Assembly (NCBI GenBank): GCA_016217665.1
Contig: JACRHF010000025.1
Coordinates: 1 to 41,847 of the forward strand
Direction of reading: 5' to 3'
Source: Nitrospirota bacterium
GTDB lineage: Bacteria > Nitrospirota > 9FT-COMBO-42-15 > HDB-SIOI813
DNA: 41,847 nucleotides
Part shown: positions 4,353 to 21,882 of the stretch, one piece after another
Layout: the number at the start of each line of letters is the position of its first letter
Position numbering within the stretch: position 1 is the first letter of the stretch
The notes under the pieces: model-generated
Told to the model about the DNA's origin: nothing
What the model saw: only the letters and a program-made list of their open reading frames with translations
Database searches by the model: none
Program-made: the position numbers and the translations under genes

Positions 4353-4385
4353 GGATTCCACCTCCGTGAATGGCTTCTATACCAC

Positions 4386-4500
4386 ATAGGAAAATCAAAA
4401 TTTCAGTTTGAATAATAGACCTCACAACTAGTGGCCGTCAAGGAATTATTAAGGGTCTTTCGAGGGTTGTCAGTGGGGGCTATGGGTAAAATTTTCCTAT
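4386..4500. repeat. Short inverted-repeat pair
   Basis: ATAGGAAAAT at 4386-4395 is matched by its exact reverse complement at 4491-4500, 95 bases apart. It lies beside the degraded region 4515-4790 and could be the remains of a small mobile element's ends. There is no target duplication that I can see, so the meaning is uncertain. Confidence 0.3.
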
Positions 4501-4514
4501 TTTGAACCACCGTG

Positions 4515-4790
4515 TCAGTTTTTCCACCGGCAAAGGGAGTAAACACCCTGTTTTTGGGCACACTGGCCGGGCAGTTGATAAAGACGCTGAATCTGCTTAC
4601 TTCTGCTTATCCTGCATCTACTCGACGTGCGTAGTGTGCAAATTCCTAGTGCGAAATTCCTAGTGCGGATATCACTGCCGAAGGTCTGAATGGCCACAAT
4701 CATCCCCGGAACAGCAGTATTATCTTCTATGACGCCTGCTTCATCTCTTTGCTCCTCTTCAGTCTCAACCGCCTCGATATATTTGGCCAT
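4515..4790 (-). pseudogene. Decayed ORF, possible IS91-type transposase scrap, left of the nif island
   Basis: The reading frame starts MAKYIEAVETEE, the same N terminus as the broken frame at 21251 on the other side of the island. It then runs into TAVPGMIVAIQTFGSD, which faintly resembles the PGM..IQTFG segment of IS91-type (Y2) transposases, followed by low-quality sequence. The mixture of an N terminus and an unrelated middle suggests a recombination scar rather than a working gene. The transposase link rests on about a dozen residues and is weak. Confidence 0.35.
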
Positions 4791-4815
4791 GGACCAATCT
4801 CCCCCATACTCATCC
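4755..4815 (+). repeat. Left copy of direct repeat bounding the nif island
   Basis: These 61 bases match 21216-21275 at all but two substitutions and one single-base indel, in the same orientation. The repeat covers the first codons (complement strand) of the MAK-IEAVETEE frame and about 28 bases upstream of its start codon. The island lies exactly between the two copies. Confidence 0.9.
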
Positions 4816-4820
4816 TGTGT

Positions 4821-5084
4821 TCATCTGAACCCTGCATATTTCTCAACGACCTTCATCTCGCGGACACCGTGGATATGGATGGGGACCGGGGAGAGGTTGA
4901 AGGCCGGAGAGGCGAAATAGGGAGTGGAGACCCCGATCAGATTGGTGCAGAACAGATGGTCATGTCCCATGGCGATGATCTCGGGAGCATGATACGGTAT
5001 GTTACGGCGGTCTTCAAGAGACCGATCGGCCGAGATCTTTTTTCCGAGATCACATGCGGCACACATTATTGTAGCAAACGACAC
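4821..5084 (-). CDS. Unrecognised short ORF at the left end of the nif island
   Basis: The frame codes about 87 residues from a GTG at 5084 (an ATG at 5066 is the alternative). It ends GVREMKVVEKYAGFR just six bases from the direct repeat. Codon choice looks like real coding sequence, and segments such as IPYHAPEIIAMGHDHLF and GVSTPYFASPAFNLSPVPIH read as a folded protein with several Cys and His residues. The open frame continues upstream without an obvious start, so it may be the C-terminal remnant of a longer gene. It points away from the nif operon and overlaps the NifA-type site. I do not recognise the family. Confidence 0.35.
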   Translation of the reverse strand: MSFATIMCAACDLGKKISADRSLEDRRNIPYHAPEIIAMGHDHLFCTNLIGVSTPYFASPAFNLSPVPIHIHGVREMKVVEKYAGFR

Positions 5085-5085
5085 A
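5070..5085 (+). promoter_or_regulatory. NifA upstream activator site (TGT-N10-ACA)
   Basis: TGT-AGCAAACGAC-ACA fits the NifA enhancer consensus exactly. It lies about 110 bases upstream of the -24 element at 5195, a normal distance for an enhancer acting through DNA looping. No nifA gene is present in the window. Confidence 0.6.
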
Positions 5086-5192
5086 AATATGTTGTCATCT
5101 TGAGCATGAATGGATGTGGGATAGGGGTACCGTTCCGGACAAATGGTATGTAACACATTGAAAACATGCGGTTTATTCTGCCATCTTCCGAC

Positions 5193-5210
5193 TTGGCACA
5201 CCTTGTGCGA
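5193..5210 (+). promoter_or_regulatory. Sigma-54 (-24/-12) promoter of the nif operon
   Basis: TTGGCACACCTTGTGCGA has the invariant GG (5195-5196) and GC (5207-5208) separated by exactly 10 bases, with TTGGCAC at -24. Transcription would begin near 5220, about 40 bases before the first gene. It is the only convincing -24/-12 element I found in the island. Confidence 0.75.
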
Positions 5211-5259
5211 TATAGAAATATACGTCGCAAGACGATTCCCAAAAGGAGGTGGTCCCGGG

Positions 5260-5457
5260 ATGGCTACCCCCGAGAGTATTTCCGATGCCATTATCGATCT
5301 GATGGAGAAGCAGGGACAGTTGACCCTGACCGAGGTGGAGACGCACCTGGGGGTCTCTTACAACCTCGTAATTCTCGACATCGACCGGATGGTGGAAAGG
5401 CATCTCCTAACTCTCGAGCGGCAGGGGACGGATTATGTCCTCTCCCGGGCGGCATAA
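5260..5457 (+). CDS. Small winged-helix-like protein, first gene of the nif operon
   Basis: A 65-residue protein starting at an ATG after a strong AAAGGAGGTGG ribosome site. The segment LMEKQGQLTLTEVETHLGVSYNLVILDIDRMVERHLLTLERQGTDY reads as helix-turn-helix plus a short wing, as in small winged-helix DNA-binding proteins. It is the first gene after the sigma-54 promoter and is followed within one base by the DUF2292 gene. A local regulatory role is possible, but no family name can be given with certainty. Confidence 0.75.
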   Translation: MATPESISDAIIDLMEKQGQLTLTEVETHLGVSYNLVILDIDRMVERHLLTLERQGTDYVLSRAA

Positions 5458-5458
5458 G

Positions 5459-5659
5459 ATGTGTGTATCGATGGTCTGCATGGATTGTAAAGTCAAGGTG
5501 GAACTGGACAGAAAAGGCAGCGCCGGCATCTGCGACGAGCGGATCATCAGCGAGATCGTGGAGAGTATTGGCCAGGTCCATCATGGTTCGGTGGAGATCA
5601 AGATCCAGGATTCCAGGGTGGTCCAGATCGACACGCTGGAGAAGCGGCGGTTGAAGTAG
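5459..5659 (+). CDS. DUF2292 / YezD-like small protein
   Basis: A 66-residue protein. The C-terminal half, HHGSVEIKIQDSRVVQIDTL, matches the core of the DUF2292 (YezD) family, whose function is unknown. The N terminus adds CVSMVCMDCK, a cysteine-rich start that could bind metal. The ATG begins one base after the stop of the preceding gene, so the two are translationally coupled. A strong hairpin follows and separates it from nifH. Confidence 0.75.
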   Translation: MCVSMVCMDCKVKVELDRKGSAGICDERIISEIVESIGQVHHGSVEIKIQDSRVVQIDTLEKRRLK

Positions 5660-5670
5660 CGATGGAATAA

Positions 5671-6684
<1,014 letters not shown>

Positions 6685-6725
6685 GGAGTTCATTGGCAGG
6701 CGGACAACAACAAGAGACTCACGAC

Positions 6726-6751
6726 CATTGCATTGGCCTTCGGCCGCAATG
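6726..6751 (+). other. Stem-loop in the nifH-nifD gap
   Basis: CATTGC pairs with GCAATG, enclosing a GGCC-TTC-GGCC hairpin, with no T-run after it. Such structures between nifH and nifD are known to protect the nifH mRNA end and raise NifH relative to NifDK; that role here is an inference. Confidence 0.45.
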
Positions 6752-6801
6752 GGTACCCCGGCAATGGGTCATGGGGAGGGAAGTGAGGAAGGGGAGCAGA
6801 A

Positions 6802-8268
6802 ATGGGCTTAGAGACCATCGAGGAACGGAAACAACTCGTTGAAGAAGTGTTATCGGTTTATCCGGAAAAGACCAAAAAGAAACGGGCCAAACACTTGGGG
6901 GTTTTCGATGAATCCCAGATCCAAAAAGGGGAATGTTCGGTCAAGTCCAACATCAAATCGATCCCGGGGGTCATGACCATCCGCGGCTGCGCCTATGCCG
7001 GATCAAAAGGGGTGGTCTGGGGACCCATCAAGGACATGATCCACATCAGCCACGGCCCGGTCGGGTGCGGCCAGTACTCCTGGGCCTCCCGGCGAAATTA
7101 CTACATCGGGATGACGGGGGTGGATACCTTCGTCACGATGCAGTTCACCTCGGATTTCCAAGAGCGGGACATCGTCTTCGGCGGGGACAAGAAGCTGGAG
7201 AAAATCATCGACGAGATCCAGCAGCTCTTCCCCCTGAACAAAGGGATCACGATCCAGTCGGAGTGCCCCATCGGCCTGATCGGGGACGACATCGAGGCCG
7301 TGTCCAAGAAAAAGTCCAAGGAATATAACGGGAAGACGATCGTCCCGGTCCGGTGCGAGGGATTCCGAGGGGTTTCCCAGTCCCTGGGGCACCATATCGC
7401 CAACGATACGATCCGGGATTGGGTCTTCCCGCAGGCCGATCAGCGTGAATTTCAGGGGACCCCTTACGACGTCGCCATCATCGGCGACTACAACATCGGC
7501 GGGGACGCCTGGTCCTCCCGGATCCTTCTGGAGGAGATGGGGCTTCGGGTGGTGGCCCAATGGTCCGGAGATGGGACGCTGAGCGAGCTGATGAACACCC
7601 CGAAGGTGAAGCTCAATATCCTCCATTGCTACCGGTCGATGAACTATATCTCCCGCCACATGGAGGAAAAGTACGGCATCCCCTGGGTGGAATACAACTT
7701 CTTCGGTCCCACCAAGATCGAAGAGTCGCTGCGCAGAATCGCTTCCCACTTCGACGACAGGATCAAGGAAGGGGCGGAGAAGGTCATCGCCAAATACCGC
7801 CCCATGGCGGACCGGGTGATCGAAAGGTACCGACCGCGCCTGGAAGGGAAGACGGTCATGCTCTTCGTCGGCGGCCTCCGCCCGCGCCACGTCATCGGGG
7901 CCTACGAAGACCTCGGCATGAACGTGATCGGAACCGGCTACGAGTTCGGCCACAACGACGACTACCAGCGGACTGCACACTACGTGAAGGAAGGGACCGT
8001 GATCTACGACGACGTCACCGGTTACGAGTTCGAGAAGTTCGTCGAGAAGATGCAGCCCGATCTGGTGGGTTCCGGGATCAAGGAGAAATATGTCTTCCAG
8101 AAGATGGGGGTCCCCTTCCGGCAGATGCACTCGTGGGATTATTCGGGACCTTATCACGGGTACGACGGGTTCGCCGTCTTCGCCAGGGACATGGACATGG
8201 CGATCAACAACCCGGTCTGGAAGATGGCGAAGGCACCGTGGAGGGAAGGGAAAACCGGAATGGAGTAG
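6802..8268 (+). CDS. nifD: Nitrogenase molybdenum-iron protein alpha chain
   Basis: A 488-residue protein holding the FeMo-cofactor and half of the P-cluster ligands. P-cluster cysteines are C63 (RGCAYAG), C89 (GPVGCGQYS) and C155 ([11 protein letters not shown]). The cofactor ligands are C276 (LHCYRSMNY) and H443 ([13 protein letters not shown]). The substrate-site His is H197 (SQSLGHH). These features make it the molybdenum enzyme rather than the V or Fe-only type. The ATG follows a GGAAGGGGAGCAG ribosome region. The 117-base gap after nifH holds a stem-loop. Confidence 0.98.
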
Positions 8269-8290
8269 GTTGGGCGAAGCGAAGCCCAAC
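8269..8290. repeat. REP-like inverted repeat in the nifD-nifK gap
   Basis: GTTGGGC, an eight-base loop GAAGCGAA, then GCCCAAC. This short palindrome belongs to a repeat type common in proteobacterial genomes. It is the only copy with both arms that I see here. A related half-copy appears reversed inside the DUF269 coding sequence (13096-13118). Confidence 0.65.
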
Positions 8291-8324
8291 AATATGAAAT
8301 TGTGACGAATCAAACGGGGAGAAC

Positions 8325-9863
8325 ATGAACCAAAACGCAGATCAGATCCTGGATCACGCCAACCTGTTCCGGGAACCGGAATATCTTGAGATGTTCGAGA
8401 AGAAACGGAAGGAATTCGAAAACCCCTGCGACTCGGACGAGATCGAGAAGATCCGGGAATGGACAAAGACCCCTGAATACCGGGAACTGAACTTTCAGCG
8501 GGAGGCCCTCACCGTCAACCCGGCCAAGGCCTGCCAGCCGCTTGGCGCCGTCTTCTGCGCCGTGGGATTCGAGGGGACCCTCCCCTTCGTTCACGGGTCT
8601 CAGGGGTGCGTGGCCTATTACCGGAGCCATCTCAGCCGCCACTTCAAGGAACCCTGCTCCTGCGTCTCTTCTTCAATGACGGAAGACGCGGCGGTGTTCG
8701 GGGGACTCAACAACATGATCGACGGCCTGGCCAACGCCTATGCGCTGTACAAGCCCAAGATGATCCATGTCTCCACCACCTGCATGGCCGAGGTGATCGG
8801 CGATGACCTCAACACCTTTATCAAGAATGCCAAGGCCAAGGGGTCCGTCCCGGAGGAATACGACGTCCCCTTCGCCCACACCCCGGCCTTCGTGGGGTCC
8901 CACATAGTAGGTTATGACAATGCGCTCAAAAGCATCCTCAGTCATTTCTGGGAAGGGAAAGAACGACAGCCGGGAGAGAAAATCAACTTGATCATGGGAT
9001 TCGACGGTTACACCGTGGGGAACATCCGGGAACTGAAGCGGATGCTGAACCTGATGAGTGTAAGCTATACGGTTCTATCGGATAACAGTGATATCTTCGA
9101 TACCCCCACGGACGGACAGTTCCGGATGTATGACGGCGGAACGACGCTTGAGGAGACGAAGAACGCCCTCCATGCAAAGGCCACGATTTCGATGCAGGAG
9201 TTCTGTACGGAAAAGACGCTGGAGTATGCGGCCTCCAAGGGTCAGGAGACGGTGGCCTTAAACCATCCTATCGGAGTTGCCGGAACCGATGAGTTTTTGA
9301 TAGAGGTTTCCCGAATTACAGGAAAGCCGATACCGCAGGAATTAGAAAAGGAGCGGGGCCGGCTGGTGGATGCCATCGCTGACTCTTCGGCCTACCTGCA
9401 CGGGAAGAGGTTCGCTCTTTACGGTGATCCGGACCTGACGCTCGGCCTGACGGCCTTCTTGCTGGAGCTGGGGGCCGAACCGGTCCATTCCCTGGCCACC
9501 AACGGCGGTAAGGAGTGGGAAGCAAAGGTCCAGGCGCTGTTCGACGCTTCTCCCTTTGGAAAGAACGGTCATGTTTATCCGGGGAAAGATCTATGGCATA
9601 TGCGCAGCCTCCTCTTCACGGAGCCGGTCGATTTTCTGATCGGGAATACCTACGGGAAATATCTGGAGCGGGACACGGGGACGCCGCTGATCCGGATCGG
9701 CTTTCCGATCTTCGACCGGCATCACCATCATCGCTATCCCATCATTGGCTATCAGGGGGCGATGAATGTCCTGGTCCGGATCCTGGACAAAGTGTTCGAA
9801 GAGTTGGACCGGAAAAGCAACGTGCCATCCAAGACGGATTACAGTTTTGACATTATTCGGTAA
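8325..9863 (+). CDS. nifK: Nitrogenase molybdenum-iron protein beta chain
   Basis: A 512-residue protein that completes the alpha2-beta2 MoFe protein and supplies the other P-cluster ligands: C70 (AKACQPLGA), C95 ([12 protein letters not shown]) and C153 ([11 protein letters not shown]), at the same positions as in Azotobacter numbering. The Ser of AFVGSHI matches the beta-Ser that can ligate the oxidised P-cluster. The N-terminal extension of about 60 residues before the core is typical of the classical NifK. The ribosome site is GGGGAG before ATG 8325. A REP-like hairpin lies just upstream. Confidence 0.98.
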
Positions 9864-9904
9864 TGGTAGGGGCGGTTCACCAACACCTCTACGGAGGGCA
9901 AACA

Positions 9905-11278
9905 ATGTTAGCCCGGAAGGTCGCCGAGGTTTTCAACGAACCTGGCTGTGAACATAACAAACAGAAGTCGGAAAAAGACCGGAAGAAGGGATGCACCAGG
10001 TCGGCGAGGCCCGGTGCCGCCGGCGGCGGATGCGCCTTCGATGGGGCCAAGATCGCTCTTCAGCCGATCACCGACGCGGCCCATCTCGTCCACGGCCCGA
10101 TTGCCTGTGAAGGAAATTCTTGGGACAACCGGAGCGCCAAATCTTCGGGACCGCTCTTATACCGGACCGGTTTTACCACAGACATCAACGAAAACGACGT
10201 GATCATGGGGGGAGAAAAGCGCCTCTTCCGGTCGATCCGGGAGGTGATCAGGAAGTACCACCCTCCGGCGATCTTCGTCTATCAGACCTGTGTCACCGCC
10301 TTGATCGGCGACGATATCGAAGCGGTTTGCAAGGCGGCGGCGCGGGAATTCAACAGGCCGATCATCCCTGTGAATGTACCCGGATTCGTCGGGGGAAAGA
10401 ACCTGGGAAACAAGCTGGCTGGGGAGGCGCTGTTCGATTATGTCATCGGGACGATGGAGCCGGAATACACGACCCCGTACGACATCAGCATCATCGGCGA
10501 GTACAACCTCTCCGGGGAGCTCTGGCAGGTCAAGCCCCTTTTCGATCGCCTGGAAATTCGCATCCTCTCCTGCATCACCGGCGATGCCCGCTACCGCGAG
10601 GTCGCCTGGTCGCATCGCGCGAAGGCCGCAATAATGGTCTGCAGCAAGTCGATGATCAATATCGCCCGGAAGATGGAAGAGCGCTATGGGATTCCGTTTT
10701 TCGAGGGATCGTTCTACGGCATCTCCGATATGAGCGATTCGCTGCGGAATATCGCCCGTCTTCTTGTCCGGCAGGGGGCGCCGGAGGGGCTGATCGAAAA
10801 GACCGAAGGGCTGATCGCGGAAGAAGAAGCCCGGGCCTGGACACGCCTGGGAGAGTACAGGGAACGTCTCCAGGGGAAACGGGTACTTCTCATCACCGGC
10901 GGGGTCAAGTCCTGGTCGGTCGTCTCGGCCCTGCAGGAGAGCGGTATGGTCGTGGTGGGGACCAGCGTGAAGAAGAGCACGAAGGAGGACAGAGAACGGA
11001 TCACGGAGCTGATGGGCGAGGATGCCCACATGATCGAGAGCATCACCCCCAAGGAGATGTACTCCATGCTGAAGGATGCGCAGGCGGACATCCTGATGGC
11101 AGGGGGAAGGTCCCAGTTCGTGGCCCTGAAGGCCCGGATGCCCTTTCTCGATATCAACCAGGAGCGCCACCAAGCCTACGCGGGGTATGAGGGGATGGTG
11201 ACGCTGGTGGAAGAGATCGACAAGGCGATCCACAGTCCGATCTGGGAGCAGGTACGGAAGAAAGCGCCGTGGGAATAA
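9905..11278 (+). CDS. nifE: FeMo-cofactor scaffold protein NifE
   Basis: A 457-residue NifD homologue. With NifN it forms the scaffold that receives the NifB cluster and adds Mo and homocitrate. Cluster cysteines lie in GGGCAFDGAKIAL, GPIACEGNSWDNR and YQTCVTALIGDD, and a further Cys lies in VCSKSMINIARKMEE. The catalytic NifD residues around [12 protein letters not shown] are absent, as expected for NifE. I chose ATG 9905 because GGAGGG lies seven bases before it; the open frame extends 42 bases further upstream without a better start. Confidence 0.95.
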   Translation: MLARKVAEVFNEPGCEHNKQKSEKDRKKGCTRSARPGAAGGGCAFDGAKIALQPITDAAHLVHGPIACEGNSWDNRSAKSSGPLLYRTGFTTDINENDVIMGGEKRLFRSIREVIRKYHPPAIFVYQTCVTALIGDDIEAVCKAAAREFNRPIIPVNVPGFVGGKNLGNKLAGEALFDYVIGTMEPEYTTPYDISIIGEYNLSGELWQVKPLFDRLEIRILSCITGDARYREVAWSHRAKAAIMVCSKSMINIARKMEERYGIPFFEGSFYGISDMSDSLRNIARLLVRQGAPEGLIEKTEGLIAEEEARAWTRLGEYRERLQGKRVLLITGGVKSWSVVSALQESGMVVVGTSVKKSTKEDRERITELMGEDAHMIESITPKEMYSMLKDAQADILMAGGRSQFVALKARMPFLDINQERHQAYAGYEGMVTLVEEIDKAIHSPIWEQVRKKAPWE

Positions 11279-11318
11279 TTTGTCTCCCTCCCCCGGCGGA
11301 GCCGTCGAAAGATAACTT

Positions 11319-12656
11319 ATGGCAATCGTCAACACATCCAACAAAGCCTGCACCGTCAACCCCCTGAAGCTGAGTCAACCCATCGGGGCGGCGCTGACCT
11401 TCCTGGGGATCAACCGGTCCATTCCGGTTCTGCATGGTTCCCAAGGGTGCACGTCCTTCGGTCTGGTCCTCTTTGTCCGTCATTTCCGGGAGATGATCCC
11501 GATGCAGACCACGGCCATGAACGAGGCGACCACGATCCTCGGCGGGACGGAAAATATCGAAGAGGCCCTTCTCACGCTTTATAAAAAGGCGTCACCGGAA
11601 ATCATCAGTCTTTGTACGACCGGTCTGACGGAGACGAAGGGGGAGGATATCGCCGGGGCCGTGAAGGAGATCCGGGGCCGTCATCCGGAGTTGAACCAGG
11701 TCGCCATTGTTCCGGTCTCCACTCCGGATTTTGTGGGGGCCTTCCAGGACGGTTGGTCGAAGGCGGTGGCCCGAATCGTGGAAGATCTGGCGGAAGGAGA
11801 GCCCGAAGTCTTTTCCGGCCGGGTCAACGTATTGGCTGGTCCCTCGCTGACCCCGGCCGACGTGGAAGAGATCGGCAGGATCGTCTCCTCATTCAATCTC
11901 CATCCCGTGATCCTCCCGGATCTTTCGGGATCGCTGGACGGCCACGTTCCGGAAGATTTTACCCCCACAAGCCTCGGCGGAACGAAACTCTCCGAAATCC
12001 GCTCGATGGGGATGTCGGAGATCACGCTGGCCATCGGGGAGTCGATGCGGCCCGCGGCCGAGACCCTGGAGAAAAAGTGCGGGGTCCCGTTCGTGGTCTT
12101 CGACCGTCTTACGGGGCTCGAGGCCAGCGACCGGTTTTTGGATCTCCTTCAACATCTGAGCGGGGAAGACGTTCCGCAAAAATATCGAGGACAGCGGAGC
12201 CGCCTGATGGACGCGATGCTGGACGGACACTTCTTTTTCGGAAAGAAGAAGGTGGCCATCGGCGCCGAGCCGGACCTTCTCTTCGCCCTGGCCTCCTTCC
12301 TGTCCGAAATGGGGAGCGATATCGAAGCCGCCGTGACAACCACAGGTTCTACAATTTTGAAAAAGATTCCGGCGGAAGAAGTCCTCATCGGGGATCTGGA
12401 GGATCTGGAAGAACGGGCCGTTGGGTGCGATCTTATGATCACGCATTCCCACGGACGTCAGGCGTCGGAACGGCTGGAGGTCCCGCTTTTCCGCGCCGGC
12501 ATTCCGACGTTTGACCGGCTGGGGACAGCGCATCAATTGAATGTAGGGTATCAGGGAACCATGCGGTTGATTTTCGAGGTGGGAAATATCTTCCTGGGAA
12601 GCAAGAAGGAAAATCACCCGGACACCTGGTCATTGTCAAATGCGGGAAGACTCTGA
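11319..12656 (+). CDS. nifN: FeMo-cofactor scaffold protein NifN
   Basis: A 445-residue NifK homologue and the second half of the NifEN scaffold. The N-terminal core has TVNPLKLSQPIGAA and the cluster Cys in HGSQGCTSFG. The segment STPDFVGAFQDGWSKA is typical of NifN. The C-terminal part keeps a GxGTAHQLNVGYQG-like stretch near the end of the Rossmann-like domain. It starts 40 bases after nifE and its stop touches the nifX start. Confidence 0.95.
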   Translation: MAIVNTSNKACTVNPLKLSQPIGAALTFLGINRSIPVLHGSQGCTSFGLVLFVRHFREMIPMQTTAMNEATTILGGTENIEEALLTLYKKASPEIISLCTTGLTETKGEDIAGAVKEIRGRHPELNQVAIVPVSTPDFVGAFQDGWSKAVARIVEDLAEGEPEVFSGRVNVLAGPSLTPADVEEIGRIVSSFNLHPVILPDLSGSLDGHVPEDFTPTSLGGTKLSEIRSMGMSEITLAIGESMRPAAETLEKKCGVPFVVFDRLTGLEASDRFLDLLQHLSGEDVPQKYRGQRSRLMDAMLDGHFFFGKKKVAIGAEPDLLFALASFLSEMGSDIEAAVTTTGSTILKKIPAEEVLIGDLEDLEERAVGCDLMITHSHGRQASERLEVPLFRAGIPTFDRLGTAHQLNVGYQGTMRLIFEVGNIFLGSKKENHPDTWSLSNAGRL

Positions 12657-12657
12657 A

Positions 12658-13056
12658 ATGAAAGTCGCCTTTGCCACACAGGACCTGGCCACGGCCAACG
12701 CGCATTTCGGCTGGGCCAGACACATTATGGTCTACGAGGTCACGCCGGACGCCTTCACGCACGTGAAGACGTACAATTTCGCCGGTAATCTTCAGGAAGA
12801 CGGGGACGAAGACAAGCTGATCCCCAAGCTGAAGGCCGTTAAGGATTGCGCCATTCTCTACGTGGCGGCCATCGGCGCCTCCGGGGCGGCCCGTGTCGTG
12901 GCCCAGAAGGTCCACCCGCTGAAGGTGAAGGAGTCGGAGCCGATCGTAAAGCTTCTCGAAAAACTCCAGGCGGTGCTCGGCGGGACCCCGCCCCCATGGC
13001 TTCGAAAGGCGATGCAGAAAGGACAGGAACGGGTGTTGGACTTCGAGGAGGACTAA
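12658..13056 (+). CDS. nifX: FeMo-cofactor carrier NifX
   Basis: A 132-residue protein of the dinitrogenase iron-molybdenum cofactor family ([22 protein letters not shown], then [14 protein letters not shown]), which carries NifB-co or VK-cluster between NifB and NifEN. I prefer ATG 12658, one base after the nifN stop and preceded by GGGAAGA, over an in-frame ATG at 12640 that has no ribosome site. It is followed by the DUF269 gene one base later, the usual nifX-DUF269 pairing. Confidence 0.93.
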
Positions 13057-13057
13057 C

Positions 13058-13570
13058 ATGGCGATGGAAGAACAAAAAACACCAACGGCAGGTGAGGCAT
13101 CGCTCCGCTCCGCCCAACAAACTCCCGACCCGATGGAGTCGGTTTTCATCAAGGAACTCGTTAAACAGTTCCGGGCCCAGGATGCGCATGGAGCCTGGGA
13201 TAAAAAGTCCGACCGGCAATTGATCGAACCATTGATCGTGGACAAGGAGAAACGGAAGACGATCCCGGTCGTCGGCGATCCCCATCCGGAGGTCTTGTGG
13301 CGGGTGGAGCTTTTTTACAATGCCGTCGGCATGACCATCGAACGACAGACCGGGATCATGGTTTCGCCGATGCTGAAGATGCATCACGAGGGGTTCGGGC
13401 GGATAGTCCTGACCGCCGGAAGACTGATTGTCGTTAACAAGTTCCTGCGGGACATCCACCGGTTCGGTTTCCCGACGATCGAGAAGATGGCGGAAGAAGG
13501 GGAGAAACTGGTAGCCACGGGAGTGGACATGATCGAAAAGTTCCCCGAGGCGGCCCAGCATGGGGAGTGA
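13058..13570 (+). CDS. NifX-associated DUF269 protein
   Basis: A 170-residue protein of the DUF269 (NifX-associated) family, recognisable from [34 protein letters not shown] and [21 protein letters not shown]. Its biochemical role is not established, but it nearly always follows nifX. The first 25 residues ([20 protein letters not shown]) are not conserved and appear to be encoded by a REP-like half-palindrome (13096-13118). A strong GGAGGA precedes the ATG, within the nifX coding end. Confidence 0.92.
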
Positions 13571-13591
13571 TTCATAGAAGGCGAGGTGAAC

Positions 13592-15109
13592 ATGGAACTG
13601 CCGATTCTGAACAATGCAAGCGCTCCGGACCCTACGGCGGGATGCAAGGCCAGGGGGAGTTGCGGCGACAGCCGCGACCCCGGGGATATGAACCCGGAGA
13701 CCTGGGAGAAGGTCAAGAACCACCCCTGCTACAGTGAGGAGGCCCATCACCACTACGCCCGGATGCACGTGGCCGTGGCGCCGGCCTGCAACATCCAGTG
13801 CCATTACTGCAACCGCAAGTACGATTGTGCCAATGAGAGCCGGCCCGGGGTGGTCAGCGAGCGGTTGACTCCTGAAGATGTGGTCAAGAAGGTTTTGGCC
13901 GTGGCCAGCGCCATCCCCCAGATGACGGTCATGGGAATTGCGGGCCCCGGAGATCCCCTGGCCAATCCCGACAAAACCTTCCGCACCTTCGAGCTGATCG
14001 CGGAGAAGGCCCCGGATATCAAGCTCTGTCTCTCCACCAATGGCCTGGCCCTCCCGGATTACGTGGACCGGATCAAGGCCCTGAATGTTGACCATGTGAC
14101 AATCACCATCAACATGATCGATCCGGAAGTAGGGGAGAGGATATATCCCTGGGTCTTTTACAAGCATAAGCGGTGGAAGGGGCGGGAGGCCTCCAGGATC
14201 TTAAGCGAGCGCCAGTTAGAGGGGCTTGACCTGCTTATGGCCAACGGCATCCTCTGCAAGGTGAACTCGGTGATGATCCCGGGGGTGAATGACGAACATC
14301 TGGTGGAGGTGAACAAGAAGGTCAAGTCGTTGGGGGCCTTCCTCCACAACATCATGCCGCTGGTCTCCGCTCCGGAACACGGAACCTATTACGGACTCAA
14401 CGGCCAGCGGGGACCGACCGCCAGGGAACTCAAGGCGTTGCAGGACAAGTGCGAAGTCCGGATGAATATGATGCGCCATTGCCGCCAGTGCCGGGCCGAC
14501 GCGGTGGGACTCCTCGGGGAAGACCGGAGTCATGAGTTTACTCTGGAAAAGATCCACGAGATGGACGTGGAATACGATCTCGAAAAGCGCCGGGCCTATC
14601 AGTTGGAGGTGGAGGCAAAGCGGCTGGAGACCCGCGCGACCAGGGAAGAGGGGCTGAAGGCAATGAAGGACGTTCAGACTGACCTGAAGATCCTCATCGC
14701 CATCGCCACGAAGGGCGAAGGGAAGGTCAACGAGCACTTCGGTCACGCCCGGGAGTTCCAAATCTACGAGGTCAGCCGCAAAGGGTGCAAGTTCGTCGGC
14801 CATCGCCGCGTGGATATGTATTGCCAGGGGGGTTGGGGAGAAGAGGACACCCTGGACACGGTGATCAAGGCGATCGTCGATTGCACGGCGGTCTTTGTCT
14901 CCAAGGTTGGGCGTTGTCCGCGGAAAACCCTCCATGCCGCCGGGATCGAACCGGTCGATCAGTACGCGTTCGATTTCATCGAAAAGTCGGCGCTGACCTA
15001 CTTCAAGGAATATGCGGAGAAGGTCCGGAAGGGAGAGATCGTCCATCAGGATCGGGGGGAGGCCTCGATCCGGACAGGGGCGATAGTTCCGGTTCCAATG
15101 GGAGGCTGA
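13592..15109 (+). CDS. nifB: Radical SAM FeMo-cofactor biosynthesis protein NifB with C-terminal NifX-like domain
   Basis: A 505-residue protein. Residues about 55-330 are the radical SAM domain, with the SAM-cluster motif [14 protein letters not shown] (C66, C70, C73) and further cluster cysteines in [12 protein letters not shown]. It builds NifB-co, the 8Fe-9S-C core, from 4Fe-4S clusters and SAM. Residues about 370-490 are a fused NifX-like domain ([23 protein letters not shown]). This two-domain form is the usual bacterial NifB. I chose ATG 13592 over the in-frame GTG at 13586. The 87-base gap after it holds no recognisable feature. Confidence 0.97.
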
Positions 15110-15196
15110 ACCTTAGTCCTGATCCCGGACACGCGGAGACGAAGGAAGAACTGAAGGCCAAGAGAGAATGTCTTCATGCCCTGGAGGGAAGAAGTG

Positions 15197-15463
15197 ATGC
15201 GCAAGGAGGATGTCGTCGAGTTGGAGGACCCTCCCCGTTTCGATTACGGGGTGAAGGTCTGTTCCCGGAAGGTGATCCGAAACGACGGGACATTTCCCGG
15301 CCGTCAGGTGGGTGATGTCTTAGTCGATAAAGGGGAAGTCGGATACGTCGCAAGCATCGGAACCTTCCTTCAGCAGTTCTACATTTACGGGGTCTATTTC
15401 CAGGAAAGAGGTTATTTCGTGGGGTGCAGGGCCAAGGAACTGGATCCGGTGGACGAGGAATGA
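15197..15463 (+). CDS. nifZ: NifZ-family P-cluster maturation protein
   Basis: An 88-residue protein with the NifZ core KVIRNDGTFPGRQVGDVLVDKGEVGYVASIGTFLQ. NifZ assists formation of the second P-cluster of NifDK. The start at ATG 15197 follows GGAGGG at good spacing; an ATG at 15176 lacks a ribosome site. It lacks the long C-terminal tail found in some NifZ proteins. nifW follows after four bases. Confidence 0.88.
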   Translation: MRKEDVVELEDPPRFDYGVKVCSRKVIRNDGTFPGRQVGDVLVDKGEVGYVASIGTFLQQFYIYGVYFQERGYFVGCRAKELDPVDEE

Positions 15464-15467
15464 GGTT

Positions 15468-15785
15468 ATGAGCGATCTCTGGGGGCGGTTCGATAAACTG
15501 GTGAACGCGGAAGACTTTCTCGACTTTTTCGAGATCCCATACGATTCCTGGGTGGTCGATGTCAACCGGCTTCATGTTCTGAAGAAGTTTTCCCTCTACA
15601 AACAAGAAATCGACCGGGAGGATTCCGGGATGACATCCGAGGAGCGATTTGCCCGTTACCGGGAGGCTATGCGGAAGGCCTACGAGACCTTTCTCACCTC
15701 GACGGCCCCGGAGCAGCGGCTCTTCAAGGTCTTTCAGCAGACTCCACTGGGACTGGTGACGATCGGGATCTCCCGAAAGGTGTGA
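15468..15785 (+). CDS. nifW: Nitrogenase-stabilising/protective protein NifW
   Basis: A 105-residue protein, the usual NifW length. The sequence shows the family pattern from LVNAEDFLDFFEIPYDSWVV through VNRLHVLKKFSLYKQEI to FKVFQQTPLGLVTI. NifW is thought to bind and protect apo-MoFe protein or assist its maturation. It lies between nifZ and nifT, consistent with this role. Confidence 0.9.
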   Translation: MSDLWGRFDKLVNAEDFLDFFEIPYDSWVVDVNRLHVLKKFSLYKQEIDREDSGMTSEERFARYREAMRKAYETFLTSTAPEQRLFKVFQQTPLGLVTIGISRKV

Positions 15786-15819
15786 TTTGAGTAGAGGTTT
15801 GGGCAATGGAGGAGGTAAT

Positions 15820-16029
15820 GTGAAAGTCATGATCCGTAAAAATTCAGAGGGGGTCTTCTCGGTTTATGTGGCCAAGAAGGACCTGGAGGAGCCGATCGTG
15901 GCGATGGAAAAGGACGACCTCTGGGGCGGGATGGTGACGCTGGCGAACGGCTGGCGTCTGGAACTCCCGGCTATGGCGCCGGACACGCGGCTTCCCATCA
16001 CGGTGGAGGTCCGGCGTGTGGCTGAGTGA
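15820..16029 (+). CDS. nifT: NifT/FixU protein
   Basis: A 69-residue protein with the NifT signature KVMIRKNSEGVFSVYVAKKD and LWGGMVTLANGWRLELP. The function is not settled; NifT is dispensable in some diazotrophs. I chose GTG 15820 because the strong GGAGGAGGT lies just before it and the family begins at this (M)KVMIR; an upstream TTG at 15787 would add eleven unconserved residues. Confidence 0.88.
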   Translation: MKVMIRKNSEGVFSVYVAKKDLEEPIVAMEKDDLWGGMVTLANGWRLELPAMAPDTRLPITVEVRRVAE

Positions 16030-16050
16030 TAGTGATAAGGAGTGTATGAG

Positions 16051-16365
16051 ATGAGCGCTGTGGAAGTGGTCACCGGAATCACACAAGGCGGCAAGGTCTG
16101 GTTCCCGCAATTCGTCCAGAGCATCGATACCTCGAAGTGTATCGGTTGTGGCCGGTGCTTCAGGGTCTGCGGCCGTGATGTGATGCGGCTGGTGGCTGTG
16201 GACGAGGACGGGACGTTGATTGAGATCGAAGATGAGGACGAGGAGTGCGAAAAGAAGGTGATGACCCTGCCCCATCCGGAGAACTGCATCGGGTGCGAGG
16301 CCTGTTTCCGGGTCTGCCCGAAACAATGCTACACCCACGGCCCCGTGCCGGCCGCGGGAACCTGA
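16051..16365 (+). CDS. fdxB: Nif-specific ferredoxin III (2x4Fe-4S)
   Basis: A 104-residue ferredoxin with two 4Fe-4S motifs, [11 protein letters not shown] and [15 protein letters not shown], separated by an acidic insert (EIEDEDEEC). This matches the FdxB/ferredoxin III type encoded in nif clusters. It likely feeds electrons to NifH or to cofactor assembly such as NifB. The start is ATG 16051 after AAGGAG. Confidence 0.92.
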
Positions 16366-16386
16366 GGAGAAGTGGAGGAGAATCGG

Positions 16387-16704
16387 ATGAAGATGGTACG
16401 AGCCATTATCCGCCCGGAGAAAGAGCAGGAGGTGGTCCTGGCCCTGGAGGGGGCCGGATTCCCTGCTGTCACCAAGTCCCATGTCTTCGGGCGGGGCAAA
16501 CAGAAGGGACTTCAGGTGGGGATCGTTCATTATGATGAGCTTCCCAAGCTGGTCCTCATGATGGTGGTGGAGGATCGAGATGTGGAAAGGGTGGTCCAGT
16601 TGATTTTAAAAACGGCCCATACGGGCAGCATCGGTGATGGGAAAATCTTTGTGAGCCCCATCGAGCAGGCCTACACTATCAGGACCGGGAAACAGGAGTT
16701 GTGA
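16387..16704 (+). CDS. nifI1: PII-like nitrogenase regulator NifI1
   Basis: A 105-residue PII-family protein (MVRAIIRPEKEQEVVLALEG, FGRGKQKGLQVG, HTGSIGDGKIFVSPIEQAYTIRTG). In methanogens and anaerobic bacteria the NifI1/NifI2 pair binds NifDK and blocks NifH access when nitrogen is available; 2-oxoglutarate and ATP relieve the block. The T-loop region lacks the uridylylated Tyr segment of GlnB. Usually nifI1-nifI2 lie between nifH and nifD; here they come after fdxB. The ATG follows GGAGGAG. Confidence 0.9.
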   Translation: MKMVRAIIRPEKEQEVVLALEGAGFPAVTKSHVFGRGKQKGLQVGIVHYDELPKLVLMMVVEDRDVERVVQLILKTAHTGSIGDGKIFVSPIEQAYTIRTGKQEL

Positions 16705-16706
16705 CA

Positions 16707-17126
16707 ATGAAAGAGATCATCGCGATTATTCGCCGGGACAAGCTCCCTGCAACCAAGAAAGCCCTGGATGGAATCGGCTGTTCGGGCATGACGATCTACA
16801 GTGTGGAAGGGCGGGGAAAGCAAAAAGGGAGGCTTTCAGAGATTGACCCGGAGATTCCGGAGCATTACGAAGGTGTTTCACGGATTATGATTCGACCGAC
16901 CCCTTCGGTCTATGCCCTGGGGCATCAGATCACCAAACCGGTCCTATATGTCCCCAAGCGGATGCTTCGGATCGTTGTCCCGGATGACCGAGTCAGCCTG
17001 GTGATCGATACCCTGATCCGGGTCAATCAGACAGGAGTCCACGGGGACGGCAAGATCTTTGTGGCCCCGGTGGAGGAGACCTGGCAGATTCGGACGTCAC
17101 AATCCGGAGAGGAGATACTGCAATGA
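16707..17126 (+). CDS. nifI2: PII-like nitrogenase regulator NifI2
   Basis: A 139-residue PII-family protein, longer than NifI1, as is usual for NifI2. Features are MKEIIAIIRRDKLPATKKAL, VEGRGKQKGRLSE and a long T-loop insertion around RPTPSVYALGHQITKPVLYVPKRM. The C-terminal part is GVHGDGKIFVAPVEETWQIRT. It starts two bases after the nifI1 stop with AGGAG eight bases before, and its own stop overlaps the next start. It forms the 2-oxoglutarate-sensing complex with NifI1 that controls nitrogenase activity. Confidence 0.9.
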   Translation: MKEIIAIIRRDKLPATKKALDGIGCSGMTIYSVEGRGKQKGRLSEIDPEIPEHYEGVSRIMIRPTPSVYALGHQITKPVLYVPKRMLRIVVPDDRVSLVIDTLIRVNQTGVHGDGKIFVAPVEETWQIRTSQSGEEILQ

Positions 17127-17338
17127 CAGAGACAATCACTCTCGATGAATTGAAGGCCCGGGTGAAGCGCCTCAGCTCCGAGGCGGGACGGTTGAAAATG
17201 GACCTGCATGACTTGGCCGAGGATCTGCCCAACGGATGGGAGAAAATTATGGAGGTGGCCCAGAGGACTTACCAGAAGTATGCTGAGCTGATGGCGGCAA
17301 GGCAACGACTGGTGAAGATGGAAAAGGCAGGCGGATGA
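17123..17338 (+). CDS. CCE_0567-type (DUF683) small helical protein
   Basis: A 71-residue, mostly helical protein with the family segment RLKMDLHDLAEDLPNGWEKI. CCE_0567/DUF683 proteins are regularly found in nif clusters near nifX and have been proposed to bind metal; their role is not established. The start overlaps the nifI2 stop, and its own stop overlaps the next start, so it sits in a tightly coupled string. Confidence 0.85.
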   Translation: MTETITLDELKARVKRLSSEAGRLKMDLHDLAEDLPNGWEKIMEVAQRTYQKYAELMAARQRLVKMEKAGG

Positions 17339-17589
17339 TTGAATGGGTGGAGAAGATAATTGAGGTCCTGGATGAGATCCGCCCCGATCTGATCGCGGAG
17401 GGTGGAGATGTCAGGCTGGCCGGTCTCGAAGAAGGGGTGGTCTATGTACGCATGGTGGGTCCGTTCACGGCATGGTGTCAGACCAAGCGCAGGGTGCTGA
17501 GGGACGTTGAACGGGTTTTGAAAGCAAGGGTTCCCTGGATTGAACGGATCGAGGCTGTCTGTCCGCCGCCGGGATCTCAGGCTCAATGA
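17335..17589 (+). CDS. NFU-domain-like protein lacking the CxxC motif
   Basis: An 84-residue protein that aligns by eye with the C-terminal NifU/NFU domain: IEVLDEIRPDLIAEGGDVRLAGLEEGVVYV, then PWIERIEAV. Where NFU proteins have the cluster-binding GACxxCP loop, this one reads VGPFTAWCQTKR, with only one cysteine. It is thus unlikely to bind a 4Fe-4S cluster in the usual way and may have a structural or carrier role. No full-length NifU is encoded in the island. The start overlaps the preceding stop. Confidence 0.75.
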   Translation: MIEWVEKIIEVLDEIRPDLIAEGGDVRLAGLEEGVVYVRMVGPFTAWCQTKRRVLRDVERVLKARVPWIERIEAVCPPPGSQAQ

Positions 17590-17598
17590 GGGTTTGTG

Positions 17599-18354
17599 AT
17601 GAATTCCGTAGCGGTTCGATATTTTGGCCACTCCTGTTTCGAGGTGACCTCGCAGGAAGGAGTTCGCTTGCTGATCGATCCGCATATAACGGGGAACCCT
17701 GCTTCTCCCCTGGGGCTGGAGGAGCTGGATCCGCCCGACCTGATCCTGGTGACCCATGCGGCCCCGGATCACCTGGGAGACACATTGGAGATTGTCAGAC
17801 AATCCGGGTGCCGCGTTTTCTGCGATCCTGCGGTGGATTATTACCTGAAGAGCCGAAAGATACCCCCGGTCCAAGTGCAACGGATGGTCTGGGGATTCCA
17901 TGTGCCGTTTCGGGGGATTCGGATCCGGGCAGTGGAGAGCCGGCACCACTCCACTCTCCGGTGGGATGGCCCGCCGGTGACCGGGATACCCCTGGGATTT
18001 ATGATCACCCTGGAATCGGGTCAGACCCTCTATCATGCTGGCGACACCTCTATTTTTGGCGACCTGAGGCTCTTTGGCGAGATCTACCGGCCAGAGGTGG
18101 CATTCCTTCCGGTGGGGAACTATCCTGGCTCCCATGCCGAGCTTTCCCCGGAGGAGGCGGCCCTGGCAGCGGCTTGGCTGGGAGTGAAGTGGGCCATCCC
18201 GATGCATTATGAGAAGGGATCAGATGCACCCTATCGTTTTGTGAATCAAGTGGCACACAAAGCACCGGGGGTCCAGGTGGTGTTGATAGAACCTGGAGAG
18301 CAGGTGATGATCGGGAGCGACCTGAAGCAGCATGAGGTGAGGATCGCAAGATGA
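17599..18354 (+). CDS. MBL-fold metallohydrolase (UlaG/UPF0173-like) in the nif operon
   Basis: A 251-residue metallo-beta-lactamase-fold protein. The start VAVRYFGHSCFEV and LLIDPHITGNPASPL fit the UlaG/UPF0173 group. Metal-site motifs are THAAPDHLGD, SRHHSTL, YHAGDTSIFGD and IPMHYEKGSD. The first motif has Ala where HxHxDH has its second His. The gene sits between the NFU-like gene and nifV, with a stop/start overlap to nifV. I know of no standard nif role for this family, so its substrate is open. Confidence 0.85.
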   Translation: MNSVAVRYFGHSCFEVTSQEGVRLLIDPHITGNPASPLGLEELDPPDLILVTHAAPDHLGDTLEIVRQSGCRVFCDPAVDYYLKSRKIPPVQVQRMVWGFHVPFRGIRIRAVESRHHSTLRWDGPPVTGIPLGFMITLESGQTLYHAGDTSIFGDLRLFGEIYRPEVAFLPVGNYPGSHAELSPEEAALAAAWLGVKWAIPMHYEKGSDAPYRFVNQVAHKAPGVQVVLIEPGEQVMIGSDLKQHEVRIAR

Positions 18355-19517
18355 TCAGAAAAGTATTTATCGACGATACCACACTCCGGGATGGGGAACA
18401 GGCCGCTGAAGTTTCCTTCACCCTGGAAGAGAAGCTTCAGATCGCCCGGATGCTGGATGAAATCGGGGTGGACCAGATTGAGGCCGGGACTCCAGCCATG
18501 GGAGGAGAAGAGCAAGAGGCCATCCGGGCCATTGCGGCGTCAGGGCTCCGGGCAGGCGTACTGGCCTGGTGCCGGGCGACCCAGTCGGATATTGACGCGG
18601 CACTGGCCTGTGGGGTGAAAGGGGTGAACATCTCCCTTCCGGTTTCTGACATCCATATCCAGCATAAACTCCAAAAGACACGTGCTTGGGTGCTGGCACA
18701 ACTGCGGTGGGCCCTTTCCTATGCCAAACGGCACGGCCTCTATGTCTCGGTGGGCGCGGAGGATGCCTCTCGGGCCGACAGGAGATTTCTCGCCCTGTAT
18801 GGGCGGATAGCTGCCGATCATGGGGCTGACCGGTTACGCTATTGTGACACAGTCGGCGTTCTGGATCCCTTTACAACCTATGAGGCTATCCGTGCTCTGA
18901 AGGAGCAGGTTGGGATCTCCCTTGAGATTCATACCCACAACGACTTCGGCCTGGCGACGGCCAATGCCCTGGCGGCGGTGAAGGCAGGAGCCAGCTATGT
19001 GAATACCACTATCAACGGTCTTGGCGAGCGGGCTGGCAATGCTGCCCTGGAAGAGGTTGTGATGGCCCTTGAGCATCTCGATGGGATTTCCCGTCTTGTA
19101 AAAACGGAAGGGCTGGTCTCCCTTTGCCAAGAGGTGGCTCGAGCTTCTGGTTCCCCCATTCCTCCCTGGAAGGCCATTATAGGCCGCAATGCTTTCGCCC
19201 ACGAGTCTGGCATCCACGTGGACGGACTTCTGAAAGCCCGGCAGACCTATGAGGCTTTTGATCCGAAAGATCTGGGGTTGAACCACCGGATTGTGATCGG
19301 GAAACACTCGGGGACCCACGCCGTCCGGTTCTATTTCGCCCGGCTGGGGATCTTCCTGACCGAGGCGGAATCCCGGGCCCTGCTGGAGCCGATCCGGCGA
19401 CTGGCCTCGCTCCGGAAACGTTCTCTCTCCGCGGATGAGCTGCGGGGAATTTACGAAGGGGTTCCGGGGACTTCGAGCAAAAGCGAAGGAGGAAACCTGC
19501 ATTGGAAGATCTCCTGA
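18351..19517 (+). CDS. nifV: Homocitrate synthase NifV
   Basis: A 388-residue enzyme that condenses acetyl-CoA and 2-oxoglutarate to homocitrate, the organic ligand of FeMo-cofactor. The family motifs are DTTLRDGEQ (N terminus), HTHNDFGLATAN (metal-binding His pair) and AFAHESGIHVDGLL. There is no C-terminal regulatory LeuA domain, which fits NifV rather than isopropylmalate synthase. Its start overlaps the hydrolase stop, and its 3' end overlaps the hesA start. Confidence 0.93.
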   Translation: MIRKVFIDDTTLRDGEQAAEVSFTLEEKLQIARMLDEIGVDQIEAGTPAMGGEEQEAIRAIAASGLRAGVLAWCRATQSDIDAALACGVKGVNISLPVSDIHIQHKLQKTRAWVLAQLRWALSYAKRHGLYVSVGAEDASRADRRFLALYGRIAADHGADRLRYCDTVGVLDPFTTYEAIRALKEQVGISLEIHTHNDFGLATANALAAVKAGASYVNTTINGLGERAGNAALEEVVMALEHLDGISRLVKTEGLVSLCQEVARASGSPIPPWKAIIGRNAFAHESGIHVDGLLKARQTYEAFDPKDLGLNHRIVIGKHSGTHAVRFYFARLGIFLTEAESRALLEPIRRLASLRKRSLSADELRGIYEGVPGTSSKSEGGNLHWKIS

Positions 19518-20290
19518 TCGATCGAGCGTCGTCCGCCAAATCAGTCCTCCTTTCGGACCCCGGCCATTCCCGGTATCGGCGGCAGCTTCTGTTGAAAGGG
19601 ATCGGCCCGGAAGGGCAGGAGAAGCTCCGGCGGGCCACCGTGCTGGTGGCGGGGGTCGGGGGGCTCGGCGGCGCCGTTGCTCTCTATCTGGCGGCGGGTG
19701 TGGGCAGACTCGTTCTCGTCCATGCCGGGCCGATCGACCTGCCTGACCTCAACCGTCAGATCCTGATGACAGACGCGGGGATCGGCCGGAGCAGGGTACA
19801 TGTCGCCCGCGAGACCCTCCATCGGTTCAATCCGGAGGTCCGTGTGGACGTGGTGGATGATCGATCGCACGAAGGGAATATCAGCGATCTCCTCCAGGAG
19901 GCCGACCTATCGGTCAGTTGCCGCTACAACTTCGAAGAACGGGATCTCCTTAACAGGGCCTCGGTCACTTCCGGAAAGCCGGTGGTGGAGGCAGCCATGT
20001 ACGGGATGGAGTTCTATCTGACGACCTTGATTCCAGGCGCAACTCCTTGTTTGCGATGCATCTACCCGGAGTTTCCCTCCTGGGACCCGTTGGGGTTCCC
20101 GGTCCTCGGGGCGGTCTCCGGAACCCTGGGCTGCCTGGCAGCGGCCGAAGCGGTTAAACTCATCACCGGAATGGGTCAACCTCTTCGAGGCACGCTCCTT
20201 TACGGGGATCTCTCGGACATGACCTTCCGGAAGTTCCGGGTCAAAAGGCAACCCGGCTGTTTCGTGTGCGGAGACGGTGATGGAATATGA
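19502..20290 (+). CDS. hesA: HesA/MoeB/ThiF-family adenylyltransferase
   Basis: A 262-residue E1-like protein. The nucleotide loop is VLVAGVGGLGGAVALYLA, followed by DLPDLNRQIL, typical of the MoeB/ThiF/HesA group, and two Cys pairs near the C-terminal half (CLRC and CFVC) that likely bind zinc. HesA homologues are common in nif clusters and may supply sulfur or aid molybdenum handling; the exact reaction is unknown. It begins at a TTG at 19502, nine bases after AAGGAGG, inside the end of nifV. I see no better in-frame start. Confidence 0.85.
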   Translation: MEDLLIDRASSAKSVLLSDPGHSRYRRQLLLKGIGPEGQEKLRRATVLVAGVGGLGGAVALYLAAGVGRLVLVHAGPIDLPDLNRQILMTDAGIGRSRVHVARETLHRFNPEVRVDVVDDRSHEGNISDLLQEADLSVSCRYNFEERDLLNRASVTSGKPVVEAAMYGMEFYLTTLIPGATPCLRCIYPEFPSWDPLGFPVLGAVSGTLGCLAAAEAVKLITGMGQPLRGTLLYGDLSDMTFRKFRVKRQPGCFVCGDGDGI

Positions 20291-21035
20291 TCTTCCGGTT
20301 TTTCTCATTCTGATGGTGTTTCTGATCGCGGCCCTCTATTCCTCCGTAGGGCATGGTGGGGCGTCCGGTTATCTGGCCGTCCTGGTGCTCGCCGGATTCG
20401 CCCGGTCAGAGATCACTCCCGTCGTGTTGGTCCTCAATATCATAGTTGCGGCCACGGGATGGCTCCAGTATTCCCGTGCCGGCCATTTCGCTCCGCGATT
20501 GCTCCTGCCGTTCGTCATGACCTCTATCCCGGGCTCCTTCATCGGGGGGATGATCTCCGTGAATGAGACGGTTTGCGCCGTCATCCTGGGCGTCGCCCTC
20601 CTGGCAGCGGCCTTCCGCTTCCTGCTCCTCCCTTATCCGGCGTCCGTCCGGACCTCGCTGGCGACGGGACCGCTGTGGGGCCTCGCTCTGCCGGTCGGCC
20701 TGTCGCTTGGAATCCTCGCCGGGATGGCGGGCATCGGCGGCGGAGTCTTCTTGAGCCCCCTCCTTCTCCTGGTGGGGTGGGCCGACGCCAAAAAGACCGC
20801 AGCGGTCTCGGCGGCCTTCATTGTCCTCAATTCCGCAAGCAGTCTGCTGGCCCATTTTATCAAGGGAACCCCCTTCCATGAAAATCTATGGATCCCCATG
20901 GGGATCGCTGTTCTACTGGGAGGGAGATGGGGTTCCCACATGGGGGCCAACCGAATTCCGGCCCTCCGGCTCCAGCAGATTCTAGGTTCCGTCCTCCTGC
21001 TAGCCGCGATTAAACTCCTCTTTTCTTTTCAGTAA
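20280..21035 (+). CDS. TauE/SafE-family membrane permease
   Basis: A 251-residue integral membrane protein with about eight hydrophobic segments. Glycine-rich motifs at the two half-repeats, SSVGHGGASGYLAVLVL and GMAGIGGGVFLSPLLLL, are the hallmark of the TauE/SafE sulfite-exporter-like family. Substrates in this family are sulfur oxyanions or organosulfonates. In a nif operon it may move a sulfur compound or another anion needed for cofactor assembly; that is inference. It is the last gene of the operon, and its ATG overlaps the hesA 3' end. Confidence 0.88.
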   Translation: MEYDLPVFLILMVFLIAALYSSVGHGGASGYLAVLVLAGFARSEITPVVLVLNIIVAATGWLQYSRAGHFAPRLLLPFVMTSIPGSFIGGMISVNETVCAVILGVALLAAAFRFLLLPYPASVRTSLATGPLWGLALPVGLSLGILAGMAGIGGGVFLSPLLLLVGWADAKKTAAVSAAFIVLNSASSLLAHFIKGTPFHENLWIPMGIAVLLGGRWGSHMGANRIPALRLQQILGSVLLLAAIKLLFSFQ

Positions 21036-21251
21036 TCATAACCGGGGCGATGCGTTTCTCTGACCTGGACGGGCCGGACACGCCGGGACCCGACCGGGCG
21101 GAACGAAACCCAGCCGACTTGCGTGCCGCGACGTATCAAGCACCTTCCATGTTGCCTTCAAATCTTCCTCATTGTATTTTATGATCTCACCGATCAACTC
21201 CCGCCTTTTTGTCTTCTCTTCAGTCTCGACCGCCTCGATATGTTTGGCCAT
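21036..21251 (-). pseudogene. Broken ORF with MAKHIEAVETEE start, right edge of the nif island
   Basis: The frame begins MAKHIEAVETEEKTKRRELI and continues IKYNEEDLKATWKVLD, then changes to G+C-rich, Arg/Pro-rich sequence that looks like island DNA read out of context. The natural part is therefore only about 40 residues, with the rest replaced at the island junction near 21126. The same N terminus occurs at 4790. I do not recognise the family. Confidence 0.45.
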
Positions 21252-21275
21252 GGACCAATCTCCCCCTACTCATCC
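21216..21275 (+). repeat. Right copy of direct repeat bounding the nif island
   Basis: These 60 bases match 4755-4815 with two substitutions and one single-base gap, in the same orientation. The match stops abruptly on both sides. The downstream side enters the MNT nucleotidyltransferase fragment. Confidence 0.9.
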
Positions 21276-21875: not shown

Positions 21876-21882
21876 TGCGGCA

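Follow-up and report, generated by a model that had tools for sequence, protein, structure and literature searches.

The window corresponds to a complete contig (41,847 bases) of a metagenome-style draft genome and contains a complete nif gene cluster. It is quite probable that this cluster was acquired horizontally and that the direct repeat flanking it consists of two scraps of a nuclease gene. A whole, apparently intact nitrogenase gene set would have moved between families within a phylum that is known largely from uncultured members, and the transfer stands in measurable contrast to the genomic background. In addition, repeats that flank an island can be overlapping pseudogene scraps and not attachment sites, and any claim of an integrative element calls for a check of this point first.

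Gene content and composition of the nif cluster

The assignment of the nif ORFs by profile matches verified that all nif genes lie between the two repeat copies, as the original prediction had claimed. The cluster has the following content:

5166–5654, plus strand, 162-aa ORF upstream of nifH; weak matches to its C-terminal part also precede nifH in the genomes G118 and G019 (see below)
5803–6684, plus strand, nifH (TIGR01287)
6802–8268, plus strand, nifD (TIGR01282)
8325–9863, plus strand, nifK (TIGR01286)
9863–11278, plus strand, nifE (TIGR01283)
11319–12656, plus strand, nifN (TIGR01285)
12640–13570, plus strand, nifX-like gene and DUF269 gene (PF02579, PF03270)
13586–15109, plus strand, nifB (TIGR01290)
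15176–16029, plus strand, nifZ, nifW and nifT
16042–17126, plus strand, ferredoxin and two PII-type regulators
17335–21035, plus strand, NifU-like domain protein, metal-dependent hydrolase, nifV (homocitrate synthase), ThiF/MoeB-like E1 and TauE/SafE permease

The two PII-type regulator genes are adjacent (16372–17126), and among the nif loci compared homologues were found only in clusters of f7 and f22, the latter being the family of G118.

The G+C content of the cluster (0.583 at 5300–21035) was higher than that of the left flank (0.440 at 1–3150) and of the right flank (0.513 at 21676–41847), as had been predicted. For comparison with the host, 282 kb from 20 contigs of the same genome were used, which had a G+C content of 0.495, and 169 host ORFs served as reference for codon usage. 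The GC3 values of nifH, nifD, nifK, nifE, nifN, nifB, moeB and tauE were at or above the 99th percentile of these ORFs. The values of nifV and of the hydrolase gene were less extreme, yet both genes were found at the bottom of the codon-preference scale. The analysis of G+C and codon usage that had been proposed as a check of the prediction thus revealed that the nif genes are foreign, while iscS, gatA, gatB and pcrA have the codon usage typical of the host. The 343-aa ORF to the left of the left repeat copy was also foreign by its codon usage, and therefore the foreign segment is wider than the interval between the repeats. The cluster now lies between flanks of the host, embedded in decayed foreign or mobile DNA that reaches past both repeat copies, from about 3160 to about 21675.

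In the spacer between nifH and nifD (6720–6760), a stretch of 36–41 bp matched dispersed repeats that occur in the host's family with 93–97% identity, which suggests that the cluster has been resident in this family for some time. The 282 kb sampled from the host genome itself contained no match to the stretch.

Distribution and origin of the nif cluster

In nine other genomes of the family, four of which are 95–100% complete, no match was found for nifH at E ≤ 1e-60 or for NifN at E ≤ 1e-90. The only congener, G001, was dismissed as a representative of the empty site. It matches the window up to position 3499, where its contig ends, and its assembly lacks positions 3500–32250 entirely. As this gap includes the isc operon, the absence of nif genes from G001 is uninformative. 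The identity to G001 climbs from about 91% to 97–100% toward the 343-aa ORF (window 2500–3499 versus L039 1–1000), and the rise at the edge of the island suggests a recent exchange between the two species. The sampled genomes did not contain an empty site; the left flank is known only in G001, which has its gap there. As no empty site was found, insertion of the cluster in one step is only putative.

The nearest nif cluster was found in G118, a member of another family of the same phylum with a sampled G+C content of 0.636. The identities to G118 were 93% for NifH, 91% for NifD, 85% for NifK, 84% for NifE, 83% for NifB and 74% for NifN, and they were lower for NifV (71%), NifW (67%) and TauE (62%). 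The background between the genome of the window and G118, determined from 29 reciprocal best hits in the sampled parts, had a median of 45%, with 71% as the highest value. In a NifDKE tree calculated with IQ-TREE the window paired with G118 (support 91/85), and both formed a clade with G019 (96/91). A FastTree run with re-rooted labels gave low support for the pair of the window and G118, and the IQ-TREE result was used.

The two clusters share the order nifHDKEN, nifX, DUF269, nifB, nifT, ferredoxin, two PII genes, nifU-like gene, nifV, MoeB-like gene and tauE, which is the last gene of the G118 cluster, too. In contrast, nifW is placed differently, and the G118 cluster includes iscA-like, nifS-like and other genes, while the cluster of the window is devoid of the nifS-like and the iscA-like gene. 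Because these two genes are missing and NifV, TauE and NifW are less similar, G118 was not the direct donor. No match to the nuclease scraps described below was found in the surroundings of the G118 cluster.

Taken together, horizontal arrival of the cluster is well supported by the foreign composition and codon usage, by the patchy distribution with absence from close relatives, and by a similarity to a distant lineage that is far above the genomic background. The donor of the cluster (about 5166–21035) would have been a G118-related Nitrospirota lineage of higher G+C content, or both clusters would have come from a common source; this direction of the transfer is putative.

Identity of the flanking repeat

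The original prediction had described a direct repeat of 61 bp, and the alignment of 4755–4815 with 21216–21275 indeed contained 2 substitutions and 1 indel over about 61 columns. A self-comparison of the window (4752–4805 versus 21213–21266, 94%) yielded it as the sole long direct repeat besides the paralogous nif genes. Gapped extension led to 4745–4815 versus 21205–21275, with 91.7% identity over 72 columns. The bit score of 96.9 is far above chance, as 20 first-order Markov shuffles of the window yielded no more than 35.6. The longest exact run common to both copies is 24 nt.

It had been pointed out that a common dispersed element would speak against the prediction, and this could be ruled out. 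No third copy was present in the 1.71-Mb assembly (77% complete, 115 contigs), and no matches were found in collections of phages, plasmids and viruses. In 396 Nitrospirota genomes the sequence was seen only as a rare nuclease gene or as the tail of such a gene.

Read on the minus strand, both copies encode GDWSMAK(H/Y)IEAVETEE. The right copy reads on into YNEEDLKATWKVLD, which matches the last positions of TIGR03491 (E 0.0014). The search of the 396 genomes yielded the stretch at 67–73% identity in three other genomes. One of these, G341, contains an intact gene for a nuclease of 488 aa with a TIGR03491 score of 167 bits (cut-off 97); for the relatives with the same nuclease tail 167 and 145 bits were obtained. 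A full-length TIGR03491 domain above the curated cut-off was not found in the window, which contains only the following scraps:

4740–4856, minus strand, left nuclease scrap, about residues 421–454 of the 488-aa nuclease (window 4856–4755); includes the left repeat copy 4755–4815
21135–21275, minus strand, right nuclease scrap, about residues 435–481 of the nuclease; includes the right repeat copy 21216–21275

The alignment of the right scrap with the 488-aa protein covers residues 438–481 (window 21266–21135). The left scrap has one internal stop codon and the right scrap has a 1-base deletion near its 5′ limit, and thus neither of them is a gene. A full-length nuclease gene was not found in the host genome, and none like it was present in the nine relatives of the family. 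The alignments identify the repeat as the stretch common to two truncated 3′ ends of one gene for a RecB-like nuclease of the TM0106 family, and it is probably neither an attachment site nor a transposon end. Both copies are pieces of the C-terminal region of this nuclease (TIGR03491), which in G341 is encoded beside SIR2-HerA genes; the window differs in having only scraps. A ribosome-binding site followed by the start of a small gene was ruled out as an explanation for the repeat, because the intact nucleases keep the frame open upstream.

In G341 (L177 2914–8759) the intact nuclease gene has an MNT-HEPN-like pair on one side and SIR2-HerA defence genes on the other, and it is divergent from the MNT gene, as at the right edge of the cluster in the window. 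Although the layout is alike, no sequence match was found between the MNT genes of the window and of G341. In G367 (L179 7865–8131) a lone C-terminal nuclease tail is preceded by unrelated sequence. This tail begins within about 2 codons of the limit of the right scrap, and it could therefore be imagined, as a very long shot, that the last approximately 50 codons of this gene serve in rearrangements as a breakpoint that recurs or as a mobile tail, and that the nif cluster used a repeatedly targeted site.

The edges of the foreign segment

The features to the left of the cluster, apart from the nuclease scrap, are:

1–3150, minus strand, left flank, common to the congener G001, with a sigma-54 response regulator and a histidine kinase among its genes
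3330–4361, minus strand, 343-aa ORF of no known family, with codon usage foreign to the host
4385–4576, minus strand, remnant of an element end of the IS91 family (Y2 transposase), namely the end downstream of the transposase gene; the transposase would have lain to the right
4665–4740, minus strand, scrap of Y2 transposase coding sequence (..AVPGMIVAIQTFG..)
4856–4996, minus strand, N-terminal part of draT (dinitrogenase reductase ADP-ribosyltransferase), truncated where it meets the nuclease scrap

The portion of the 343-aa ORF up to position 3499 is about 99% identical to G001. The assignment of the IS91-family end is based on 82% identity over 190 bp to a sequence in the relative G003 (C48) that lies beside a Y2_Tnp gene, and it is the element end downstream of the transposase gene. 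Further copies were present in G000, G003, G006 and G007, several of them with the terminus ATAGGAAA, and the same terminus occurs elsewhere in the host genome and in the host's family. A hairpin at this end was searched for in 100 bp, and none stood out. The coding scrap is 84% identical to G000 (C42) and 76% identical to G007 (C63), in both cases within Y2 transposase remnants; an intact Y2 transposase gene was not found in the window. Only the left nuclease scrap is joined to IS91-family debris. The draT fragment covers positions 1–32 of 256 of PF07357 with a score below the curated cut-off, and with a draT-like N-terminus of G019 it shares 48% identity over 44 aa; in both cases the reading direction is divergent from nifH.

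To the right of the cluster the following features were found:

21276–21536, plus strand, MNT nucleotidyltransferase gene without about the first 36 N-terminal positions, abutting the right repeat copy
21497–21675, plus strand, HEPN gene fragment (PF05168 positions 5–45 of 117), ending where iscX begins
21676–24703, minus strand, isc operon of the host (iscX, fdx, iscA, iscU, iscS, iscR), the resident right flank
30608–32821, GH57 gene

The prediction that the right repeat copy joins a toxin-antitoxin pair lacking its 5′ end was thus verified with respect to the MNT gene; the upstream portion of its open frame is antisense nuclease sequence. Its HEPN partner is truncated as well, on the other side, at iscX. 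In relatives of the family, uvrA or other genes come after iscX (names by inspection of translations).

Possible routes of integration

The two nuclease scraps reach inward to the nif genes with complementary parts of the nuclease, the left one with the upstream part and the right one with the downstream part. Because of this arrangement, it fits that DNA with one nuclease tail would have been opened within this tail and then joined in with a partial duplication of the tail. A circle recombining with a nuclease scrap already resident in the host would be one example. Afterwards, deletions and an IS91-family insertion would have eroded the edges. The integration step taken by itself is a tentative proposal, and it as well as the order of events is something that we infer. 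It counts against this preferred explanation that IS91-family debris adjoins one scrap only and that both scraps would point inward by chance in one of four cases. Since the copies are only about 92–94% identical, either the duplication took place long ago or the scraps do not go back to a single molecule. A target-site duplication from a simple insertion into a nuclease gene was disfavoured, because the scraps extend inward and not outward.

According to the original prediction, the cluster arrived, and could possibly leave, by recombination between the repeat copies. While the arrival from outside was corroborated by composition, codon usage, distribution and similarity, a role of the repeats as recombination sites was not established; they are nuclease scraps, and foreign material continues outside of them. 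A recombination between a circle of nif genes and nuclease tail and a scrap in the host is nevertheless conceivable, albeit doubtful. The two copies, the only ones, are in direct orientation at both ends and have complementary inward extensions, and it is improbable that a rare gene which occurs twice at a distance of 16 kb has nothing to do with the cluster. Moreover, for ISCR1 in complex integrons it has been proposed that a gene is partially duplicated through the integration of a rolling-circle intermediate (PMC13023784). However, a resident host scrap of only about 60–70 bp would be needed, the exact run of 24 nt is short, and the 343-aa ORF and the MNT and HEPN scraps lie outside of the repeats. 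In addition to the missing empty site, no integrase or recombinase gene was present among the ORFs scanned across the window, no tRNA or tmRNA gene was found, and there was no sign of a working excision system. The prediction had noted the lack of a visible integrase, which held for the scanned ORFs, but it had missed the degraded IS91-family transposon end at the left edge. This end might indicate that the cluster was carried by one-ended rolling-circle transposition, with 4385–4576 as the initiation end and the nif genes on the co-mobilised side. The remnant would be the appropriate end, and the orientation of the transposase scrap matches. In ISCR1 the initiation end is situated downstream of the transposase gene, and a single element is enough to move adjacent DNA (PMC13023784). 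Nonetheless, such a transposition appears unlikely, as the window has no intact transposase, no prominent hairpin and no defined right end, and the presence of other copies of the IS91-family end in the host and its family without nif genes means that it may have come later.

Two further explanations have very little probability. The closest nif clusters are found within the same phylum, as would be expected from vertical inheritance with loss of nif in all other sampled members of the family, but neither the foreign codon usage nor the extent of the similarity to G118 agrees with it. Equally improbable is an artefact of assembly or binning, by which a nif contig would have been joined to the genome via the repeat. 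The assembly is indeed a metagenome-style draft in 115 contigs and the repeats lie near composition breaks. However, the identical run is short, each repeat copy has its own flank, host-like DNA is found on both sides of the cluster, and the contig of the congener passes from the left flank into the foreign 343-aa ORF at the same junction.

Two known systems were compared with the window. The nitrogen fixation island of Pseudomonas stutzeri is likewise a nif set present as a single block in some members of a group, and it is described with cobS and a glutathione peroxidase gene as flanks common to all carriers (PMC4174501). In contrast, the window has rubble at the edges of its cluster, and its site is not known from a second carrier. 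The one-ended transposition of ISCR and IS91-family elements in complex class 1 integrons (PMC13023784, PMC13393415) is similar with respect to the presumed initiation-end remnant at one edge and the partial gene duplication flanking the region. The differences are that the window has a destroyed transposase and an element located outside of the repeats, and that the mobilisation of cargo is only putative.

Additional repeats of the right flank

Dispersed repeats at 24820–25014, 32817–32927 and 38126–38310 have many copies in G001, G003, G004, G006 and G007, and some contigs of relatives break near them. Perfect inverted repeats were found in the intergenic regions at 28045–28121 (arms of 30 nt) and 34611–34664 (arms of 26 nt). 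The former contains GGGGACAGATTTA, and a similar motif is located near 24250–24280.
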